Assembly: GCA_036226585.1 (NCBI GenBank) | Contig: CP108997.1 | Coordinates: forward strand, 5,022,001 to 5,086,000 | Direction: 5' to 3' | Length of the DNA stretch: 64,000 nt | Source: Streptomyces sp. NBC_00708 | GTDB lineage: Bacteria; Actinomycetota; Actinomycetes; Streptomycetales; Streptomycetaceae | In this document: positions 12,429 through 22,159 of the stretch, in pieces | Layout of the letters: each line of letters begins with the position of its first letter | Numbering within the stretch: the first letter of the stretch is position 1 | Position numbers and translations under genes: made by a program | The notes under the pieces: generated by a model | The model's input: the letters and a program-made list of their open reading frames with translations, nothing else | The model's database searches: none | What the model was told of the DNA's origin: nothing

Positions 12429-12779
12429 AACCCCCTTGTGTCACGGCCGGGAATGGACCACGATCGGCCACGCTCGGTCCAATAACGCCAGTCCGGCTGC
12501 CAGCCGGGAGCGGCGGCTCCGTTGGGTCCCCACCGAGCGGGTCGGCGGCAGTGGCGCCGGCTCCGGACAGGGGGGTTCCTGCCGGTCGGCAGGGCCTGTC
12601 CGATCAGGTCACGCACACGCGTGACCCGTGGTTGTCGCTCGGGGGTGATCGCCGGTGATGCGGACGCGGTACATGCCTCCGTATGCGGGCGCTCTCCTTT
12701 CCGAGGACGTAGCACTTCTCCCATCCCAGGTCGGGCAGGATGCCGGACCGGAGATGTACGTCCGAGAAGGAGGAAAAAT

Positions 12780-13448
12780 ATGAGTTCCCAGGTTCGCGGT
12801 GGCACGAGATGGAAGCGTTTCGCTGTCGTCATGGTGCCGAGCGTCATAGCCACCGCCGCCGTCGGCGTCGGTCTGGCCCAGGGCGCGCTCGCCGCGTCCT
12901 TCAGCGTTTCGGGCCAGGAGTTCAAGGTCAAGGCCGGTGAACTCGAGGGCTACGACTTCGTGCAGTACGGGAGTGTGGCCACCGAGCAGGGTGCCGACCC
13001 CAAGGTGGCTGACGGCAAGGGCCACGCCGTGGCCGTGTCGGGCTTCAGCAAGGCCTACATCACGAACATGTGCCAGTCGGTCGTGACGCCCAACCTGCCG
13101 TTCGGTCTCGGCGACATCACCCTGCGGCTGGAGGCGGGTGGCGAGGGGCACGACCGTGTCTACGCCAAGGACCTCTACCTCGATGTGTCGGAACTCGACG
13201 GCGACGCCAAGTTCAGCAACATCGACATCGGCGTGGCCGCCGGTTCGCTGAAGAAGGACAAGCCGGGCAGCATCGGCATCCAGCCCGGTACGCAGGCCAA
13301 CCCCAACGGGTTCGCCCAGCGTGCCGAGAAGGCCGTGCTGACCGACGTCCACCAGAAGGCGTGGGCCACGACGGCCGGCACCTTCAACCTCAGTGGACTG
13401 AAGCTGCGCCTGCACAAGGGCTCCGGCGCCGGCAAGGAGTGCTACTAA
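12780..13448 (+). CDS. DUF6230 family exported protein
   Basis: 222-aa secreted or membrane-anchored protein of unknown function. It has a basic N-terminus (GGTRWKRFAVVM), a hydrophobic stretch VPSVIATAAVGVGLAQGALA (residues about 19-38) with an Ala-x-Ala site, and a beta-rich mature domain ending in ECY. Two Cys residues (in ITNMCQSVV and the terminal GKECY) could form a disulfide. ATG 12780 has an ideal AAGGAGGA Shine-Dalgarno at 12767-12774. It heads a three-gene set with a DUF6114 membrane protein and an exported repeat-rich protein. Confidence 0.85.
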   Translation: MSSQVRGGTRWKRFAVVMVPSVIATAAVGVGLAQGALAASFSVSGQEFKVKAGELEGYDFVQYGSVATEQGADPKVADGKGHAVAVSGFSKAYITNMCQSVVTPNLPFGLGDITLRLEAGGEGHDRVYAKDLYLDVSELDGDAKFSNIDIGVAAGSLKKDKPGSIGIQPGTQANPNGFAQRAEKAVLTDVHQKAWATTAGTFNLSGLKLRLHKGSGAGKECY

Positions 13449-13543
13449 GCACTCGCCCCGGGCGGCCGGGGGCGCTTCGCGTGCCCCCGGCCGCCCACCC
13501 TTCTCCTTCTCACAGCAGTACCGGTTCCAGGGAGCTGTTTTCC

Positions 13544-14122
13544 ATGAGCCCCGAATCCCAAGGGCAGAACGAGCACTACCTCTCCATCGCCTGGCGAGGC
13601 TTCCGCACCTGGCGGGGTGACCGGCCGTTCTGGGCCGGACTGTTCACCATGCTGGGCGGCTTGCCCATCATGTACTTCCCGTACGCGAACATGCACCTCG
13701 GCAACATGACGCTGGCGATGTCCACCACCGCCGGCGCCGGTTCGCTGATCATCGGTGTCCTGCTCGTCACGCTGGGCCTGACGATGTGGTTCCACAGCAT
13801 CGTCCGTGTGTTCGCCGGTGTCGCGGCGATTCTGCTGGCCCTGATCTCCATACCCGTCGCCAACATCGGCGGTTTCGTGATCGGCTTCGTCTTCGCCCTG
13901 CTCGGCGGCGCGCTCTCCGTGTCGTGGGTCCCGGGCGAGGCGCCGGCGGAGGGCGAGCCCGCGTCGGCCGCGGCCGCTCCCGCCGAGGAGGCCCCGGAGA
14001 CCGTCTCGTTCGCGAAGGACGAGCCGCTTCCCGAGGGCGTGCTCCACGGGGCGGGCATCCCCGAGCAGCAGGCGTACGACACGACCGTCGAGACCGAGGG
14101 CGGGAGGCATCGTGCGGGGTGA
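13544..14122 (+). CDS. DUF6114 integral membrane protein
   Basis: 192-aa protein with four predicted membrane helices (about residues 26-46, 52-70, 76-96 and 100-124) beginning after WRGFRTWRGDRPFWAGLFTM and including FVIGFVFALLGGALSVSW. A cytoplasmic Ala/Glu/Pro-rich tail follows (EAPAEGEPASAAAAPAEEAP). It overlaps the next gene by 11 bp. The adjacency of DUF6230 and DUF6114 suggests that this protein is the membrane partner of the exported product (inference). Confidence 0.85.
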   Translation: MSPESQGQNEHYLSIAWRGFRTWRGDRPFWAGLFTMLGGLPIMYFPYANMHLGNMTLAMSTTAGAGSLIIGVLLVTLGLTMWFHSIVRVFAGVAAILLALISIPVANIGGFVIGFVFALLGGALSVSWVPGEAPAEGEPASAAAAPAEEAPETVSFAKDEPLPEGVLHGAGIPEQQAYDTTVETEGGRHRAG

Positions 14123-15428
14123 CGACAAGCAGGTGAACGCCGCGGACGAGAGCGGGTTCCAGGAACGCAGAGGACCCCGTCACGCCGCCCCCAGGAAGTC
14201 GCTGCTGACGAAGCTCCACATGCCCTCGGGCAAGAAGGCGTTCGCGCTCGCCGCGATGCCGACGGCGGTCTTCGTCGGGATGGGGCTCACGCCGAAGCTG
14301 GCGATGGCCGACGACTCGACGGACATCCCCTACGCGCCCGGCCCCTGTGTGACCCGCTCCGACGAGCCGAGCGAGTCGGCCGACCCGACGCCCTCCGCGT
14401 CGAAGACGCCGTCCCCGTCGGCGAGCACGAGCAGCAAGCCGGCTCCGGAGACGAGCGATCAGGCGACTCCGAAGCCCACGGCCACCGGCTCGGCGGCCGA
14501 CAAGGGCAGCGAAGCCGCCGACACCGCGAAGCAGAAGAGCACCGACGCCGCACCGGCCGAGACCCCGGCCGCCACCCCGTCGCCCACCAAGTCGAAGAAC
14601 CCTCTCGACCCGCTGGGCCTCGGCGACGCGCTCAAGGACCTCTTCGACGGACCGGACAAGGAGACGGCGAGCCCGTCCCCGACAGCCACCACCGCGAGCC
14701 CGAAGCCCTCGGACTCCGCCACCGCGGACTCGAAGGACAAGGCCGAGGACAAGCCGGCCGAGAAGACCGTCGAGAAGGCCACCGGCGCGGCGAAGGACAC
14801 GGTCGACAAGACCACCGACGCCATCCGCGAGGCGGCCGGCAAGGCGGGCAGGACGGTCGAGGAACTCGACGAGGACGTCAAGGGCACCGACGCCAAGAAG
14901 GACGAGGACATCCCGGACGGCGCCAAGGAGCCGTTCCCGTGTCCGACCGCCGACCCGGAGGCCCTGGCCAACGCGAAGGCGGAGCCCGGCATTCCCATGC
15001 TGCCCAGCGACCCGTGGATCCTGGAGAGCTCGCTGCTCACCCTGAACGGGCTCGACTACAAGGGCATCGTCGAGGTGCAGAAGGCCGACGGCACCACCAA
15101 GAAGGTGCTGAAGTTCACCGCGTCCTCGATCGACATCAAGGACCTGCACCAGCTGACGACCGGTCCGCAGTCGGGCCTCACCGGCCATGTGCAGGCGAGC
15201 AAGGGGTCGACCTCCACCATCAGGAACGGCACGGTGACGATGTACACGGAGGAGCTGAAGGGCAACCTCTTCGGCCTCATCCCGATCACCTTCAGCCCGG
15301 AGACCCCGCCCCCGCTGAACGTCCCGTTCGCCTTCTTCACCAAGGTGAAGGTCACCCAGGCAGGCCAGTTCGGCGGCACGCTGACCGTGCCCGGCCTGCA
15401 CAACTATTTCACCAAGGACGGCGCCTGA
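14112..15428 (+). CDS. Exported Pro/Ala/Ser/Thr/Lys-rich protein with beta domain
   Basis: 438-aa protein with a basic N-terminus, a membrane or signal segment (about 44-66, ending KLAMADD), a long low-complexity region (about 80-285; PTPSASKTPSPSASTSS, TPAATPSPTKSK) resembling a cell-wall-spanning linker, and a C-terminal domain (about 295-438; DPWILESSLLTLNGLDYKGI, TIRNGTVTMYTEELKGNLFG). That domain has the same alternating-strand look as the DUF6230 mature domain. GTG 14112 overlaps the DUF6114 gene. I do not recognise a named family for the whole protein. A strong terminator ends the cluster. Confidence 0.8.
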   Translation: MRGDDKQVNAADESGFQERRGPRHAAPRKSLLTKLHMPSGKKAFALAAMPTAVFVGMGLTPKLAMADDSTDIPYAPGPCVTRSDEPSESADPTPSASKTPSPSASTSSKPAPETSDQATPKPTATGSAADKGSEAADTAKQKSTDAAPAETPAATPSPTKSKNPLDPLGLGDALKDLFDGPDKETASPSPTATTASPKPSDSATADSKDKAEDKPAEKTVEKATGAAKDTVDKTTDAIREAAGKAGRTVEELDEDVKGTDAKKDEDIPDGAKEPFPCPTADPEALANAKAEPGIPMLPSDPWILESSLLTLNGLDYKGIVEVQKADGTTKKVLKFTASSIDIKDLHQLTTGPQSGLTGHVQASKGSTSTIRNGTVTMYTEELKGNLFGLIPITFSPETPPPLNVPFAFFTKVKVTQAGQFGGTLTVPGLHNYFTKDGA

Positions 15429-15442
15429 CGCCTCTCGGTAGC

Positions 15443-15485
15443 ATGGCGAAGGCCCGCCACCTCTCGGGGTGCGGGCCTTCGCCAT
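15443..15485 (+). terminator. Perfect 15-bp hairpin ending the DUF6230 cluster
   Basis: ATGGCGAAGGCCCGC (15443-15457) pairs with GCGGGCCTTCGCCAT (15471-15485). It lies 15 bp after the stop of the exported protein and 26 bp before the next gene. Confidence 0.85.
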
Positions 15486-15510
15486 GCTCGTCAACGTCTG
15501 CGGGGGACAA

Positions 15511-16530
15511 GTGAGTTCGATGTATGTGACAGAGCCGGGCGAAGCCCGTATCGAGCCGGTGCGGGGGACGGCCGACGCCACCCGGCCCGCTGTCGACCCC
15601 GGCCGGGTGCCCGTCCGGGTCCACGATGCCGGGGTCTACTACCGCCGGTTCTTCGCGCCCGACGAGGACCACTTCGGGCGCATCCGTGCCGAGCACGCGT
15701 TCCAGTCGCTGACGGAGTCCACCAAGGCCGGCGCCGCCCACCGCACCGGGATCTACCTCACGCCCGTCACCCGGGACGGGGACGAGCTGCACTTCCGGCT
15801 GCTGCGGTGCTCCACGAACCTCTCGGGCCCGACCGAGAACTTCGGCCCGGCCGACACGGAGATCGTCGACGCGCTGAACCGTGAGGCCGCCACGGTCTTC
15901 CGGGATCACGCGCCGCTGAACCATGTCCTCGCGCAGACGTACCACAACACCCCTGCCACGACCGGGCGCAAGCAGTCCAAGGCCCGGATCTCGTCCCACG
16001 CCGACAAGACGAAGGACATGCCCCGCAACGGCGTCATGGCCTTCTGCACCTTCTACGACCGGCTCGACGGGCTGAGCCCCATGGCCGACGACCCCTACGA
16101 CTACGGTGTGGGGCGCGCGAGCGCGCTCACCCGGCTCCGCTTCCGCCTCAAGGACCCGGCGGACGAACGCGACGGCCGGCCCGCGCAGTTCACGCTGACG
16201 CTCCACCCCGGCTCGGTCTTCCTCATGCCGCTGTCCACCAACCGCCTGTACACGCACGAGGTCCGGCCCTCCACGCTGAACGCCGAGTACCTGCCGACCC
16301 GCCTGGGATACGTGGTGCGCTGTTCGAGCGCCGAGGCCGTGCACAGGGACGGCCGTACGTTCCTCAAGGGCGCGGCGGGCCCGGTGGAGCTGGAGGAGCC
16401 CACGGAGGCGGGCATGGAGGAGCTGCGCGGGCTGTACGCCGAGGAGAACCGGACCACGTCGTTCATCGACTACGGCGACCGGTTCCGCTTCAGCATGAAC
16501 GCGGGGGACTACCGTGCTCCCCGGATCTGA
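15511..16530 (+). CDS. Putative 2-oxoglutarate/Fe(II)-type oxygenase A
   Basis: 339-aa protein I cannot assign to a named family. The pattern H163-A-D165 (RISSHADKTKDM), H249 (LYTHEVRP) and R264 (PTRLGYVVRC) has the order expected for Fe and 2-oxoglutarate ligands in a double-stranded beta-helix; this is inferred from pattern only. It shares a C-terminal signature with the next protein (L-R-x-x-Y/R-x-E-N-x-x-T-x-F). GTG 15511 follows GGGGGACAA closely; ATG 15520 is an alternative. The gene overlaps the next by 17 bp, so the two paralogues are translationally coupled. It may act on protein or small-molecule substrates; nothing nearby indicates which. Confidence 0.7.
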   Translation: MSSMYVTEPGEARIEPVRGTADATRPAVDPGRVPVRVHDAGVYYRRFFAPDEDHFGRIRAEHAFQSLTESTKAGAAHRTGIYLTPVTRDGDELHFRLLRCSTNLSGPTENFGPADTEIVDALNREAATVFRDHAPLNHVLAQTYHNTPATTGRKQSKARISSHADKTKDMPRNGVMAFCTFYDRLDGLSPMADDPYDYGVGRASALTRLRFRLKDPADERDGRPAQFTLTLHPGSVFLMPLSTNRLYTHEVRPSTLNAEYLPTRLGYVVRCSSAEAVHRDGRTFLKGAAGPVELEEPTEAGMEELRGLYAEENRTTSFIDYGDRFRFSMNAGDYRAPRI

Positions 16531-17278
16531 GGACATCGTCCGGTGCTCCCTGCCGGGCGGGGTGGACCTCTTCGCGGAGCTGTGCGCGGCGACGCCCATG
16601 GAGGACGTCGGGAAGGGCCGCAAGGGCGCCGTGCTGACCCGGGCCGACGCGGACGGCGGGGTGCCGCTCGTACGGACGACGACGCGGTACGCGCGCCCCG
16701 CGCTGCGCTTCCGGGACGTACACGAGCGGCTGGCGCGGGAGATACGGGAGCGCGCGGGGCTCCCGGCCGTCCTCGACAACGCGCTCGCCGAGCGCTACAC
16801 GAGCGCGTACACGACGATGGGCCGGCACTCGGACCAGGCGCTCGACCTGGCCGACGACGGGTTCATCGCCGTCCTCTCCTGCTACCGGGACCCGGAGGCG
16901 GAGCCGCGGCGGCTGCTGATCTTCGAGTCGAAGGAGGAGCCCGGCGCCGGGACGCTGGAGATCCCGCTCGTCCACAACGGCGTCGTCGTCTTCTCCGTGG
17001 CGGCCAACCGGCGGCTCAGGCACCGGATCGTCGCGGATCCCGCCGGAGGGCCGGGGGACAACGAGTGGCTGGGCCTCACGTTCCGGACGTCGAAGACCGT
17101 ACTGCGCTTCCGCGACGGGCGGCCGTACCTCCCGCGGGGCGTACCGCTCACGCTGGCGGACGAGGAGCGGAGCCGTACGTTCTACGGGCTGCGGCGCCGC
17201 GAGAACAACGAGACGGACTTCGTCTACCCGGAGCTGGACTGCACCGTCAGCGCGAGCGACTTGGTGCCGCCGGTCTGA
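16514..17278 (+). CDS. Putative 2-oxoglutarate/Fe(II)-type oxygenase B
   Basis: 254-aa paralogue of the preceding protein. Candidate ligands are H105-S-D107 (TTMGRHSDQALDLADD), H170 (ANRRLRHRIV) and R191 (LGLTFRTSK). The C-terminal segment LRRRENNETDFVYPEL aligns with LYAEENRTTSFIDYGD of protein A, and DGRPYLPRG with DGRTFLKGA. It is shorter than A, mainly lacking A's insertion after the HxD motif. GTG 16514 is preceded by GGGGG and lies inside gene A. A bidirectional hairpin separates it from the convergent pyk gene. The function is unknown. Confidence 0.7.
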   Translation: MLPGSEDIVRCSLPGGVDLFAELCAATPMEDVGKGRKGAVLTRADADGGVPLVRTTTRYARPALRFRDVHERLAREIRERAGLPAVLDNALAERYTSAYTTMGRHSDQALDLADDGFIAVLSCYRDPEAEPRRLLIFESKEEPGAGTLEIPLVHNGVVVFSVAANRRLRHRIVADPAGGPGDNEWLGLTFRTSKTVLRFRDGRPYLPRGVPLTLADEERSRTFYGLRRRENNETDFVYPELDCTVSASDLVPPV

Positions 17279-17285
17279 AAAGGCC

Positions 17286-17316
17286 GGTGCCCCCGGTTCC
17301 GGGAACCGGGGGCACC
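17286..17316. terminator. Bidirectional hairpin between oxygenase B and pyk
   Basis: GGTGCCCCCGGTTCC (17286-17300) is fully complementary to 17302-17316. It lies between two convergent stop codons. Confidence 0.88.
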
Positions 17317-17334
17317 GTCGTCGTGCGGGGGGCG

Positions 17335-18765
17335 TCAGCCCTGGTCCTGGCCGCCCACGTGGTGGACGCGGACCATGTTGGTGGTGCCGGGGACACCGGG
17401 GGGCGAGCCGGCCGTGATGACCATCGTGTCGCCCGTGTTGTAGCGGCCGAGCTTCAGCAGCTCCGAGTCGACCAGGTCCACCATCGCGTCCGTGTTGTCC
17501 ACGTGCGGGACGACGTGGGCCTCGACGCCCCAGCTGAGGGCCAGCTGGTTGCGGGTGGCCTCGTCCGTGGTGAAGGCCAGGATCGGCTGGGCCGCGCGGT
17601 AGCGGGAGAGCCGGCGGGCGGTGTCACCGGACTTGGTGAAGGCGACCAGCGCCTCGCCGCCCAGGAAGTCCGCGATCTCGCAGGCCGCGCGGGCGACCGA
17701 ACCGCCCTGGGTACGGGGCTTCTTGCCCGGCACCAGCGGCTGGAGGCCCTTGGAGAGCAGCTCCTGCTCGGCGGCGACCACGATCTTCGACATGGTCTTG
17801 ACGGTCTCGATCGGGTACGCGCCGACCGAGGACTCCGCGGAGAGCATGACCGCGTCCGCGCCGTCCAGGATCGCGTTGGCGACGTCGGACGCCTCGGCGC
17901 GGGTCGGACGGGAGTTGGTGATCATCGACTCCATCATCTGGGTCGCCACGATCACCGGCTTGGCGTTGCGCCGGCACAGCTCCACCAGGCGCTTCTGCAC
18001 CATCGGGACCTTCTCCAGCGGGTATTCGACGGCGAGGTCGCCGCGGGCGACCATCACACCGTCGAACGCCATGACGACGCCCTCCATGTGCTCGACGGCC
18101 TGCGGCTTCTCCACCTTGGCGATGACGGGGACCCGGCGGCCCTCCTCGTCCATCACCTTGTGGACGTCCTTGACGTCGTTGGCGTCCCGGACGAAGGAGA
18201 GCGCGACCAGGTCGCAGCCCATCCGCAGCGCGAACCGCAGGTCCTCGACGTCCTTCTCGGACAGGGCCGGGACATTGACCGCGGCACCCGGCAGGTTGAT
18301 CCCCTTGTGGTCGGAGATCACCCCGCCCTCGATGACGATGGTGTGGACGCGGGGGCCCTCGACGGAGACGACCTTCAGCTCGACGTTGCCGTCGTTGATC
18401 AGGATCGGGTCGCCCTTGGCGACGTCACCGGGCAGGCCCTTGTAGGTCGTACCGCAGATCGACTTGTCCCCGGGGACGTCCTCGGCGGTGATGACGAACT
18501 CGTCCCCGCGGACCAGCTCGACCGGACCCTCGGCGAACTTCGCCAGGCGGATCTTCGGGCCCTGGAGGTCGGCGAGCACGCCGACCGCCCGCCCGGTCTC
18601 GGCGGCGGCCTTGCGGACCCGGTCGTACCGACCCTGGTGTTCCGCGTGGGAGCCGTGACTGAAGTTGAAACGGGCCACGCTCATGCCGGCCTCGATCAGA
18701 GCGACGAGCTGCTCATGGGAGTCGACGGCGGGGCCGAGGGTGCAGACGATTTTGGAACGGCGCAT
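17335..18765 (-). CDS. pyk: Pyruvate kinase
   Basis: 476-aa glycolytic enzyme converting phosphoenolpyruvate and ADP to pyruvate and ATP. It shows KIVCTLGPA at the N-terminus, the ADP/K+ site RFNFSHGSH, the catalytic VIAKVEKPQA segment and the signature GVMVARGDLAVE, then PTRAEASDVANAILDGADAV and a C-terminal allosteric domain. ATG 18765 fits the conserved MRRSKIV start and follows a TAGGAT box. It lies downstream of ackA on the same strand with a 74-bp gap containing its own predicted promoter. S. coelicolor has two pyk genes; this one sits in the same context as pyk2 (recalled from memory). Confidence 0.95.
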   Translation of the reverse strand: MRRSKIVCTLGPAVDSHEQLVALIEAGMSVARFNFSHGSHAEHQGRYDRVRKAAAETGRAVGVLADLQGPKIRLAKFAEGPVELVRGDEFVITAEDVPGDKSICGTTYKGLPGDVAKGDPILINDGNVELKVVSVEGPRVHTIVIEGGVISDHKGINLPGAAVNVPALSEKDVEDLRFALRMGCDLVALSFVRDANDVKDVHKVMDEEGRRVPVIAKVEKPQAVEHMEGVVMAFDGVMVARGDLAVEYPLEKVPMVQKRLVELCRRNAKPVIVATQMMESMITNSRPTRAEASDVANAILDGADAVMLSAESSVGAYPIETVKTMSKIVVAAEQELLSKGLQPLVPGKKPRTQGGSVARAACEIADFLGGEALVAFTKSGDTARRLSRYRAAQPILAFTTDEATRNQLALSWGVEAHVVPHVDNTDAMVDLVDSELLKLGRYNTGDTMVITAGSPPGVPGTTNMVRVHHVGGQDQG

Positions 18766-18772
18766 GAGGCGG

Positions 18773-18806
18773 ATCCTATCGGTTTGTTTCGCTGCGGAAT
18801 ATTCCG
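18773..18806 (-). promoter_or_regulatory. Predicted pyk promoter with 12-bp palindrome
   Basis: On the minus strand a consensus -10 TAGGAT (18778 to 18773) lies seven bases before the ATG. The perfect palindrome CGGAATATTCCG (18795-18806) covers the expected -35 position. A repressor or activator acting there would control pyk separately from pta-ackA. Confidence 0.6.
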
Positions 18807-18839
18807 GCTGGTGGAAGATACAAAAGGGCGCGGGCCCGC

Positions 18840-20081
18840 TCAGTTGTCGACCAGTGCGAAGGTCTGATTCGCGATCTCCAGCTCCTCGTCCGTCGGCACC
18901 ACGGCGACCGCGACCCGTGCGTAATCCGGCGAGATCAGCCGCGGCACCCCGGACCGTACGGCGTTGAGATCCGCGTCCACCACCAGGCCGAGCTCCTCCA
19001 GCCCTGCGATGGCAGCCTCCCGCACCGGGCTCGAGTTCTCCCCGACCCCCGCCGTGAAGACCACGGCATCCACCCGGCCGAGCACCGCCGTATAGGCGCC
19101 GATGTACTTCTTCAGCCGGTGGATGTAGATGTCGAAGGCGAGCGCGGCACGCTCGTCGCCCTCGTCGATCCGGCGCCGGATCTCCCGCATGTCGTTGTCG
19201 CCGCACAGCCCCACCAGGCCGCTGCGCTTGTTGAGCAGGACGTCGATCTCGTCCGCGGACATCCCCGCCACCCGCTTCAGGTGGAAGGTGACGGCCGGAT
19301 CGATGTCCCCGGAGCGGGTACCCATGACCAGCCCCTCCAAGGGGGTCAGGCCCATCGACGTCTCCACGCACCGCCCGCCCGCGACCGCCGACGCGGACGC
19401 CCCGTTGCCCAGGTGCAGCACGATGACGTTGACGTCCTCCGGCTCCTTGCCGAGCAGCCGGGCCGTCTTGCGGGAGACGTACGCGTGCGAGGTGCCGTGG
19501 AAGCCGTAGCGGCGGATGCGGTGCGCGTCGGCCGTCTCCACGTCGATCGCGTAGCGCGCCGCGTACTCCGGCATCGTCGTGTGGAACGCCGTGTCGAACA
19601 CCGCCACCTGCGGCAGGTCCGGGCGCAGGGCCATGGCGGTGCGGATGCCCGTGATGTTGGCCGGGTTGTGCAGCGGGGCGACCGGGACCAGCCGCTCGAT
19701 CTCCTTCAGCACGTCGTCGGTGATCACGGTCGGCTCGGTGAACCGCAGCCCGCCGTGCACCACCCGGTGCCCGATCGCCGCCAGCTCGGGGGAGTCCAGG
19801 CCGAGCCCGTCCGCCGCCAGCTCCTCGGCCGCCGCCTTCAGCGCCTCGTCGTGGTCGGCGATCCGGCCCTCGCGCTCCCGGGGCCCGCCGCCGCCGGCCA
19901 GCGGGGTGTGGACGAGCCGGGAGGTCTCCTCGCCGATGCGCTCGACGAGCCCGGACGCCAGCCGGGAGCGGTCGCGCATGTCGAGCAGCTGGTACTTCAC
20001 GGAGGAGGAGCCGGAGTTGAGCACGAGCACCCGGCTCGGCTTGCCCCGGGCCGCGGTCTCTTCGGTGTTCGGGGTGGTCAT
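18840..20081 (-). CDS. ackA: Acetate kinase
   Basis: 413-aa ASKHA-fold kinase interconverting acetate + ATP and acetyl phosphate + ADP. Motifs: VLNSGSSSVKYQL (phosphate 1), HRVVHGG, VFDTAFHTTMPEYA, YGFHGTSHAYVS and LGNGASASAVAGG, and near the C-terminus VFTAGVGENSSPVRE. ATG 20081 has GAGGAG eight bases upstream; a GTG at 20090 overlapping the pta stop is an alternative. The gene follows pta with a gap of only five bases to the chosen ATG, so Pta and AckA form the acetyl-CoA to acetate overflow pathway. Confidence 0.95.
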   Translation of the reverse strand: MTTPNTEETAARGKPSRVLVLNSGSSSVKYQLLDMRDRSRLASGLVERIGEETSRLVHTPLAGGGGPREREGRIADHDEALKAAAEELAADGLGLDSPELAAIGHRVVHGGLRFTEPTVITDDVLKEIERLVPVAPLHNPANITGIRTAMALRPDLPQVAVFDTAFHTTMPEYAARYAIDVETADAHRIRRYGFHGTSHAYVSRKTARLLGKEPEDVNVIVLHLGNGASASAVAGGRCVETSMGLTPLEGLVMGTRSGDIDPAVTFHLKRVAGMSADEIDVLLNKRSGLVGLCGDNDMREIRRRIDEGDERAALAFDIYIHRLKKYIGAYTAVLGRVDAVVFTAGVGENSSPVREAAIAGLEELGLVVDADLNAVRSGVPRLISPDYARVAVAVVPTDEELEIANQTFALVDN

Positions 20082-20086
20082 GCGGG

Positions 20087-22159
20087 TCACTCCTCGCCCT
20101 GTGCCTGGATCGCCGTGATGGCCACGGTATTCACGATGTCCTGCACGAGGGCTCCCCGGGACAGGTCGTTGACGGGCTTGCGCAGCCCCTGGAGGACCGG
20201 GCCGACGGCCACGGCGCCCGCCGAGCGCTGCACGGCCTTGTAGGTGTTGTTGCCGGTGTTGAGGTCCGGGAAGATCAGGACCGTCGCCTGGCCCGCCACC
20301 TCGGAGCCGGGCAGCTTGGTCGCGGCGACGCTCGGCTCGACCGCCGCGTCGTACTGGATGGGGCCCTCGATCCGGAGGTCCGGGCGGCTCGCGCGCACCC
20401 GGTCCGTCGCCTCGCGGACCTTGTCGACGTCGGCGCCGGTGCCCGAGGTCCCCGTCGAGTACGACAGCATCGCGATACGCGGTTCCACCCCGAAGCGGGC
20501 GGCGGTGGCGGCCGACTGGACGGCGATGTCCGAGAGCTGCTCGGCGTCCGGGTCCGGGTTGACCGCGCAGTCGCCGTACACCAGCACCTTGTCGGCGAGG
20601 CACATGAAGAAGACCGAGGACACGATCGACGCGTCCGGCTTGGTCTTGATGATCTCGAACGCGGGCCGGATGGTCGCCGCCGTGGAGTGCACCGCCCCGG
20701 AGACCATGCCGTCGGCCAGGCCCTCCTGGACCATCAGCGTGCCGAAGTAGTTCACGTCCGAGACGACGTCGTGCGCCAGCTCGACCGTCACCCCGCGATG
20801 CGCCCGCAGCTGTGCGTACCGCTCGGCGAACGACTGGCGCAGCTCCGAGGTCTGCGGGTCGATGAGCTGGGTGCCGGCCAGGTCGATGCCCAGGTCCGCG
20901 GCCTTCTTGCGGATGACGTCGACATCGCCGAGGAGGGTGAGGTCGCAGACGTCGCGCCGCATCAGGACGTCGGCCGCGCGCAGCACCCGCTCCTCGGTGC
21001 CCTCCGGCAGGACCACCCGGCGCCGGTCCGCGCGCGCCTGCTCCAGCAGCTCGTGCTCGAACATCATCGGCGTGACCCGGCCGCTGCGGGCGACCGAGAT
21101 CCGGTCGAGGAGGGCGGCGGTGTCGACATGGCGCTCGAAGAGGCCGAGCGCGGTCTCCGCCTTGCGCGGGGTGGCCGCGTTGAGCCTGCCCTCCAGGGCG
21201 AAGAGCTCCCCGGCCGTGGGGAAGGAGCCGCCGGCCACCGAGACGACCGGGGTGCCCGGTGCGAGTCGTGCGGCCAGCGTGAGTATCTCCTCGCCGGGCC
21301 GCTCGTTCAGCGTCAGCAGCACCCCGGCGATGGGCGGCGTCCCGGCGCTGTGCGCGGCGAGCGAGCCGACCACCAGGTCCGCGCGGTCCCCGGGCGTCAC
21401 CACCATGCACCCCGGGGTCAGCGCCTTCAGCAGGTTCGGCAGCATCGCGCCGCCGAAGACGAAGTCCAGCGCGTCCCTGGCGAGCCCCGCGTCGTCGCCC
21501 AGCAGCACCGTGCCGTCCAGGGCCGCGGTGATCTGGGCGACCGTCGGCGCCGAGAGGGCCGGTTCGTCGGGCAGCACCGAGCAGGGGACCGGCAGGGTGG
21601 CGGCGAGGCGTTCCGCGACGACATCGCGGTCGGCGGGGGCCACCCGGTTCACGATCATCGCGAGGACGTCGCAGCCCAGGCCCGAGTAGGCCCGGTACGC
21701 GTTGCGCGTCTCGGCGCGCACCGATTCGGCGTTCTGGTCCCGGCCGCCGACCACCGCGATCACGGAGGCGCCGAACTCGTTGGCGAGGCGGGCGTTGAGC
21801 GCCAGCTCGTCGGGGAGCTGGGTCGCGGAGTAGTCGGTGCCGAGGACGAGCACCACCTCGTAGTCCGCGGCCACCCGGTGGAAGCGCTCGACGAGCCGGG
21901 AGACCAGTTCGTCGGTACCCTGCTCCGCCTGGATCGCGGACGCCTCGTGGTAGTCCATCCCGTAGACCGTGCCCGGGTCCTGGGAGAGCCGGTAGCGGGC
22001 CCGCAGCAGTTCGAAGAGCCGGTCGGGGTCGTCGTGGACCAGGGGGCGGAAGACCCCGACCCGGTCCACCTGGCGGGTCAGCAGCTCCATGACGCCCAGA
22101 TCGACGACCTGGCGGCCGTCTCCCCGGTCGATCCCGGTCACGTACACGCTGCGCGTCAC
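20087..22159 (-). CDS. pta: Phosphate acetyltransferase, long form
   Basis: 690-aa enzyme interconverting acetyl-CoA + phosphate and acetyl phosphate. The order is an N-terminal P-loop-like/DRTGG regulatory part (SVYVTGIDRGDGRQVVDLGV; ALTPGCMVVTPGDRADLV is DRTGG-like) and a C-terminal catalytic PTA domain (RRVVLPEGTEERVLRAADVL, DGMVSGAVHSTAATIRPAFE, LIFPDLNTGNNTYKAVQRSA). GTG 22159 is chosen because GGGAGAG precedes it and the homologous sequence starts there; upstream residues in the open frame are promoter-derived. It is divergent from pfkA. Confidence 0.94.
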   Translation of the reverse strand: MTRSVYVTGIDRGDGRQVVDLGVMELLTRQVDRVGVFRPLVHDDPDRLFELLRARYRLSQDPGTVYGMDYHEASAIQAEQGTDELVSRLVERFHRVAADYEVVLVLGTDYSATQLPDELALNARLANEFGASVIAVVGGRDQNAESVRAETRNAYRAYSGLGCDVLAMIVNRVAPADRDVVAERLAATLPVPCSVLPDEPALSAPTVAQITAALDGTVLLGDDAGLARDALDFVFGGAMLPNLLKALTPGCMVVTPGDRADLVVGSLAAHSAGTPPIAGVLLTLNERPGEEILTLAARLAPGTPVVSVAGGSFPTAGELFALEGRLNAATPRKAETALGLFERHVDTAALLDRISVARSGRVTPMMFEHELLEQARADRRRVVLPEGTEERVLRAADVLMRRDVCDLTLLGDVDVIRKKAADLGIDLAGTQLIDPQTSELRQSFAERYAQLRAHRGVTVELAHDVVSDVNYFGTLMVQEGLADGMVSGAVHSTAATIRPAFEIIKTKPDASIVSSVFFMCLADKVLVYGDCAVNPDPDAEQLSDIAVQSAATAARFGVEPRIAMLSYSTGTSGTGADVDKVREATDRVRASRPDLRIEGPIQYDAAVEPSVAATKLPGSEVAGQATVLIFPDLNTGNNTYKAVQRSAGAVAVGPVLQGLRKPVNDLSRGALVQDIVNTVAITAIQAQGEE

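Follow-up and report, generated by a model that had tools for sequence, protein, structure and literature searches.

What do two overlapping genes of a Streptomyces genome make, one oxygenase or two? The genes, here called A and B, lie in a 64,000-nucleotide stretch of Streptomyces sp. NBC_00708 (contig CP108997.1, positions 5,022,001 to 5,086,000 of the forward strand), which we call the window. A preliminary description, made from the letters of this stretch, took their products for coupled paralogues resembling undescribed Fe(II)/2-oxoglutarate (2OG) oxygenases that form a heterodimer or act in sequence on one substrate. We favor, at about even confidence, a reading in which A and B, two AlkB-fold paralogues co-translated as an obligate pair, would form one heteromeric oxygenase. 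The features that this reading uses are listed below.

15511..16530, + strand: gene A, 339 residues, GTG start; predicted AlkB-fold Fe(II)/2OG oxygenase with the pattern HxD...H...Rx5R
15997-15999 (H163), 16003-16005 (D165), 16255-16257 (H249), 16300-16302 (R264) and 16318-16320 (R270), + strand: codons of gene A
16514..17278, + strand: gene B, 254 residues, GTG start; AlkB-fold paralogue with HxD...H intact (H105, D107, H170) and the AlkB-type R191
17066-17068 (W185, at the place of AlkB Arg204) and 16790-16792 (E93, at the place of Asn120), + strand: codons of gene B
16503..16530, + strand: translational coupling signal, made up of a Shine-Dalgarno-like GGGGGA (16503-16508) inside gene A and the 17-nucleotide overlap of A and B

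Pairing and paralogy of A and B

Both genes were found where the preliminary description had placed them, sharing 17 nucleotides, and in the window the GGGGGA ends 5 nucleotides before the GTG of gene B. Relatives were collected by scanning 84,980 species genomes with two peptide patterns of A; 166 stretches encoded a relative and the best 80 of these 166 were examined. B adjoined A on the same strand and overlapped it in all 80. These 80 and 9 further loci, with at least three duplicate strains and excluding the window, gave a set of 89 in which the homologous start of B was always found. The overlap was 17 nucleotides in 83 loci and 29 in the other 6, and a Shine-Dalgarno-like sequence preceded the B start in 88 of 89. 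The start codon varied (TTG 60, GTG 21, ATG 6, CTG 2). A variant junction was seen in Nonomuraea gerenzanensis (L186:5737-7571), where A aligned only to residue 375 of 409, its tail being shortened, and B followed directly in another frame.

The expectation of obligate pairing was borne out by genome counts. Among 61 near genomes, A was present in 10 and B in the same 10; among 392 genomes of the genus, A was present in 37 (9%) and B in the same 37, a count that drops two A matches (E 0.086-0.098) and three B matches (E 0.047-0.083). One genome (G712) held an additional partial B match. Across the phylum, the same 2 of 396 genomes carried both genes, one being the window's own. At E values up to 1e-3 there were 2442 matches to A and 1236 to B, and farther-out relatives of A without B may exist, since the best 120 of each match list were examined. 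The 80 loci span Streptomyces, Kitasatospora, Actinomadura, Nocardia, Nocardiopsis, Catenulispora and others, and among the listed matches the closest named relatives of the window's A and B are from Streptomyces. A tree of the loci showed 18 genus-label changes for 9 genera compared to a shuffled mean of 28.9, which is suggestive of gene transfer. A plasmid collection gave three records with A, of 3.1-11.9 Mb, and both records that were fetched also hold B; the source genome of the window is 7.65 Mb.

A and B are paralogues of common ancestry, as the comparison of their family profiles showed (E 4.5e-7 and 1.3e-8 over 203 and 218 columns, at 26% and 24% identity). The HxD and the later H of the two families coincide in this alignment, which also covers both C-terminal signatures noticed at the outset, pairing DGRTFLKG with DGRPYLPRG and LYAEENRTTSF with LRRRENNETDF. 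A tblastn search with one B protein found a relative's A gene (L185) at E 6.8e-6, with 23% identity over 244 residues. The protein distances of A and B also correlate (r 0.75, n 90), and none of 999 permutations gave a correlation as high.

Gene A of the window is shorter than most of its homologues. Among the listed A homologues, 112 of 120 have 373 residues or more and the other 8 have 315-336, because most have an N-terminal region of ~70 residues or more that the window's A does not have. In the window's clade, the beginning of the usual A N-terminus is still present (15511-15610; MYVTEPGEARIE), but ~70-95 residues that follow it in the long forms are missing. By this alignment, the clade's gene A carries an in-frame internal deletion.

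The AlkB-like fold and the active sites

A double-stranded beta-helix Fe(II)-oxygenase fold, as anticipated, was seen in the predicted structures of both proteins, which were modeled as single chains with no ligands. For each, the best match was human ALKBH2, followed by ALKBH3, Escherichia coli AlkB and FTO, and the mean predicted local distance difference test score (pLDDT) of the B model was 90.7. The preliminary description had recognized no named family. This did not hold, since the fold and, weakly, PF13532 (2OG-FeII_Oxy_2) put A and B near the AlkB family, and automatic annotation already names a number of the 120 listed B homologues AlkB. At E values up to 10, PF13532 matched 17 of 20 A-family members (best E 1e-5) and 12 of 20 B-family members (best E 2.9e-9), and the precomputed label is present on some relatives. 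Against solved structures by sequence, the B profile found ALKBH2/3 together with chance matches (best E 0.0027), the B sequence alone had no match, and A had only chance matches. A search of NCBIfam gave no family. The anti-phage defence families of PADLOC-DB gave 0 matches for A and 0 for B, a PHROG search gave none for either, and B, the one of the two searched there, had no viral relatives in IMG/VR or phage records.

Active-site residues were compared in 210 rows per protein: the 89 loci, the window and the 120 listed matches. H163, D165, H249 and R264 of A and H105, D107, H170 and R191 of B, the residues named in the preliminary description, exist at those numbers in the translations. 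In A these four and R270 are identical in 210/210 rows; in B the four are likewise identical in 210/210 rows, as are E93, Y95, K140 and W185. The two fourth residues are thus real and invariant, but they are not counterparts. Equating R264 of A with R191 of B was ruled out by the profile alignment, which sets R264 over W185 and R270 over R191, and by the structural end points, where B195 and A274 each pair with AlkB 214 and ALKBH2 258. If the last ~10 residues before these points are ungapped, R264 of A and W185 of B fall at AlkB Arg204, and R270 and R191 at Arg210. The same register is seen by eye when the host's ordinary AlkB (GRLNVTLRE) is set beside A (TRLGYVVRC) and B (EWLGLTFRT). In the B profile alignment, E93 sits over an ALKBH2 Asn that we take to be the counterpart of AlkB Asn120, a residue in contact with 2OG.

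FTO Arg316 is presumably the counterpart of AlkB Arg204. AlkB Arg204 contacts the C5 carboxylate of 2OG (PMC7467159), FTO Arg316 coordinates 2OG and is described as absolutely conserved (PMC11431407), and Arg210 is described as a distinguishing mark of the AlkB family (PMC8508711). A and B share the fold and the HxD...H triad of AlkB, ALKBH2/ALKBH3 and FTO, and both have an Arg210-type arginine (R270 and R191). The Arg204/Arg210 pattern (Rx5R) is complete in A, with R264 as the 2OG-anchoring arginine, and only its Arg210 half is found in B, where Arg204 is replaced by Trp and Asn120 by Glu. The pair also differs from the AlkB family in being an overlapping two-gene unit. A common C-terminal tail (A 275-339, B 196-254) extends beyond the part that aligns with ALKBH2 and holds the DGR..L and EN...F signatures.

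By these residues, A resembles a complete Fe/2OG enzyme, and B an iron-keeping protein whose standard 2OG anchors have been uniformly lost. The assignment of both to the 2OG-dependent oxygenases therefore suits A, which carries the full AlkB residue set, but B is not simply 2OG-dependent because the position of the anchoring Arg is an invariant Trp. With W185 in every row, we leave B outside the 2OG oxygenases of the AlkB family; it shares their fold and at most works with one of them. For those B homologues that automatic annotation calls AlkB, the name probably misleads, because B has no 2OG anchor and a true, full-scoring AlkB (~170 bits) is encoded elsewhere in the host genome. That ordinary AlkB open reading frame (L183:1480-2786; G000:C1 near 4242460) overlaps one that presumably, from its PCHRVI motif, resembles O6-alkylguanine-DNA methyltransferase, and the two look like a separate conventional alkylation repair pair.

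The cassette and its leader

The pair was described as sitting in an otherwise conserved region between strong terminators. Three further features bear on this.

15407..17329, no strand assigned: inserted cassette, a stretch missing from relatives at the same place (flank alignments)
15440..15488, + strand: strong hairpin ahead of gene A; 15436-15500 folds at -45.1 kcal/mol (z -7.8)
17282..17322, no strand assigned: hairpin between gene B and the convergent pyruvate kinase gene; the fold of 17275-17330 is -37.5 kcal/mol (z -3.9)

Of the 11 relatives compared at this site, 6 align with the window on both sides of the cassette and have the two flanks ~113-333 bp apart, with neither gene between them; in the other 5 the alignment is on the pyruvate kinase side only. 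The closest relative (L172) matches the window at 14238-15406 and at 17330-20146, and 333 bp separate its two flanks. The region is thus conserved as described, and the pair is an accessory insertion in it. Within at most 10 kb, no neighboring gene besides A and B recurs; the commonest families were each seen in 7 of the 80 loci and stood at different distances from the pair. The pair is a patchy, stand-alone cassette without conserved neighbors.

Both hairpins are real in the sequence, but a consensus terminator scan, which needs a T run, called neither of them a terminator. The downstream hairpin is probably a bidirectional terminator. The upstream one may have another origin. About 200 bp upstream of A is conserved colinearly in 36 of 78 loci (with at least 5 partners), compared to 0 of 80 loci downstream of B, and this upstream element consists of promoter-like CCGTTGCCCGC...CCGTGAGAGCATC and a long hairpin. 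The leader hairpin was found by pattern in 20 of 23 candidate loci. Examples are L068:2701-2758 and L104:9602-9659, where a 24-pair hairpin has changes on both sides. In an alignment of the 11 equal-length loci of the 20, 85.9% of cells pair. Two-sided changes occur in 8 of the 24 pairs, two of which are unpaired in 9 of 11 rows, and 12 of 500 shuffles reach as many. The covariation score was above all 500 shuffles and all slid controls; the number of further pair types was matched by 57 of 500 shuffles. Upstream fold energy was rejected as evidence, since its median (-36.3, best fold in the last 230 nucleotides) was no stronger than that of the control (-38.0), and only homology and pair changes are counted here. 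Rfam matches were all far below the gathering scores and gave no family for the leader.

The 3' arm of the window's hairpin at 15440-15488 is common to the leader element of the relatives, and therefore what was taken for an upstream terminator may be left over from the leader of the cassette itself. By this comparison, it may be either that or the terminator of the upstream gene. An attenuator or a regulatory RNA of the pair is a possible role for the leader.

Upstream of the cassette in the window lies an uncharacterized gene (14112-15428) with no Pfam match, and downstream lies the convergent pyruvate kinase gene. The upstream gene is the third in a row (12522-15428) that starts with DUF6230 and DUF6114; it is rich in Ser, Thr, Pro and Lys, and its product, judged by eye, is probably exported.

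One heteromeric oxygenase or separate enzymes

In the heteromeric reading, A would be the catalytic protein, binding Fe(II) and 2OG and oxidizing the substrate. Translational coupling would set a fixed ratio of A to B, and B, degenerate but metal-binding, would be a partner that attaches to A and serves in substrate recognition or activation. Other active/inactive paralogue pairs provide the analogy for this role of B. In METTL3-METTL14, for example, one complete and one defective paralogue are likewise retained together; the fold there is different, B keeps its metal ligands, and the complex of A with B is one that we infer. The pair brings no pathway genes with it, and its substrate would therefore be expected in most actinomycete cells, most plausibly as a nucleic acid or a common metabolite.

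Several results weigh against this reading. The A model is of low confidence (mean pLDDT 61, with residues 171-250 averaging 76-90), and its weak stretches are those of HxD (161-170, pLDDT 48) and of R264/R270 (261-270, pLDDT 59). The register of A therefore leans on sequence more than on structure. The window's own A matches PF13532 at 23.4 bits (E 7.6e-5), below the curated cut-off of 31.2, and a PF13532 search of the window's B gave no match. In four pairs from the window's clade, the ratio of nonsynonymous to synonymous substitution rates was ~0.33-0.49 for B, above the ~0.17-0.28 for A, which would fit weaker constraint on B. In addition, the metal ligands of B, kept in every row, would be needless in a mere scaffold, and coupling fits two free enzymes equally well.

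These last two points lead to the main rival of the heteromeric reading, that two separate oxygenases act in turn on one substrate, A using 2OG and B being an active iron enzyme that works without 2OG or anchors it otherwise, for example through the invariant K140. The uniform retention of the metal triad, R191, Y95 and K140 in B is what this would predict, and co-occurrence suits it as well as coupling does. We nevertheless regard it as rather unlikely, since the loci conserve no further gene of a pathway next to A and B, and the carboxylate of 2OG would be expected to be repelled by the invariant Glu at the place of Asn120. Less probable still is that the pair is an extra repair cassette, which would use AlkB-type chemistry to repair alkylated DNA or RNA or to demethylate it. 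Among solved structures, the folds closest to A and B are those of ALKBH2 and ALKBH3, both DNA repair enzymes, and a stand-alone, patchy distribution is expected of a repair or resistance gene. However, fold likeness proves no function, the host already has its full-scoring AlkB, and the residues after HxD in AlkB (D135/E136) are by position T and K in A. No sign of SOS control was found either: a scan for TCGAAC-N4-GTTCGA in the 250 nucleotides upstream of 78 loci gave best-mismatch counts like those of a control stretch. A paper on LexA in Streptomyces venezuelae names an alkB, vnz_32390 (PMC9380542), which could be B or the ordinary AlkB; the LexA box printed there had no match in the loci scanned, even with 1 mismatch allowed. 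Least probable of all appears a function outside nucleic acids, in which the pair would tailor or inactivate an antibiotic or another small molecule. Many Fe/2OG oxygenases do such chemistry, and the pair is distributed in actinomycetes, but the 80 loci show no conserved biosynthetic gene beside it, with even the commonest neighbor families at varying distances.

Tentatively, and at well below even confidence, the heteromeric reading can be carried further. The pair would then be the first heteromeric oxygenase of two AlkB-fold paralogues, in which one has a rebuilt 2OG pocket (Asn120 to Glu, Arg204 to Trp) with the metal kept, so that B would use a different co-substrate or serve as a metal-sensing regulatory subunit, all on a free-standing cassette with its own leader hairpin. 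No AlkB-type enzyme composed of two AlkB paralogues is known to us, and a literature search, with most subscription journals outside its coverage, gave no description of such a pair. The pair persists across several actinomycete genera, and the invariant change at the co-substrate residue makes it a natural test of the role of that arginine. It is also a ready two-gene system, in which deletion or expression would reveal a new oxygenase function.
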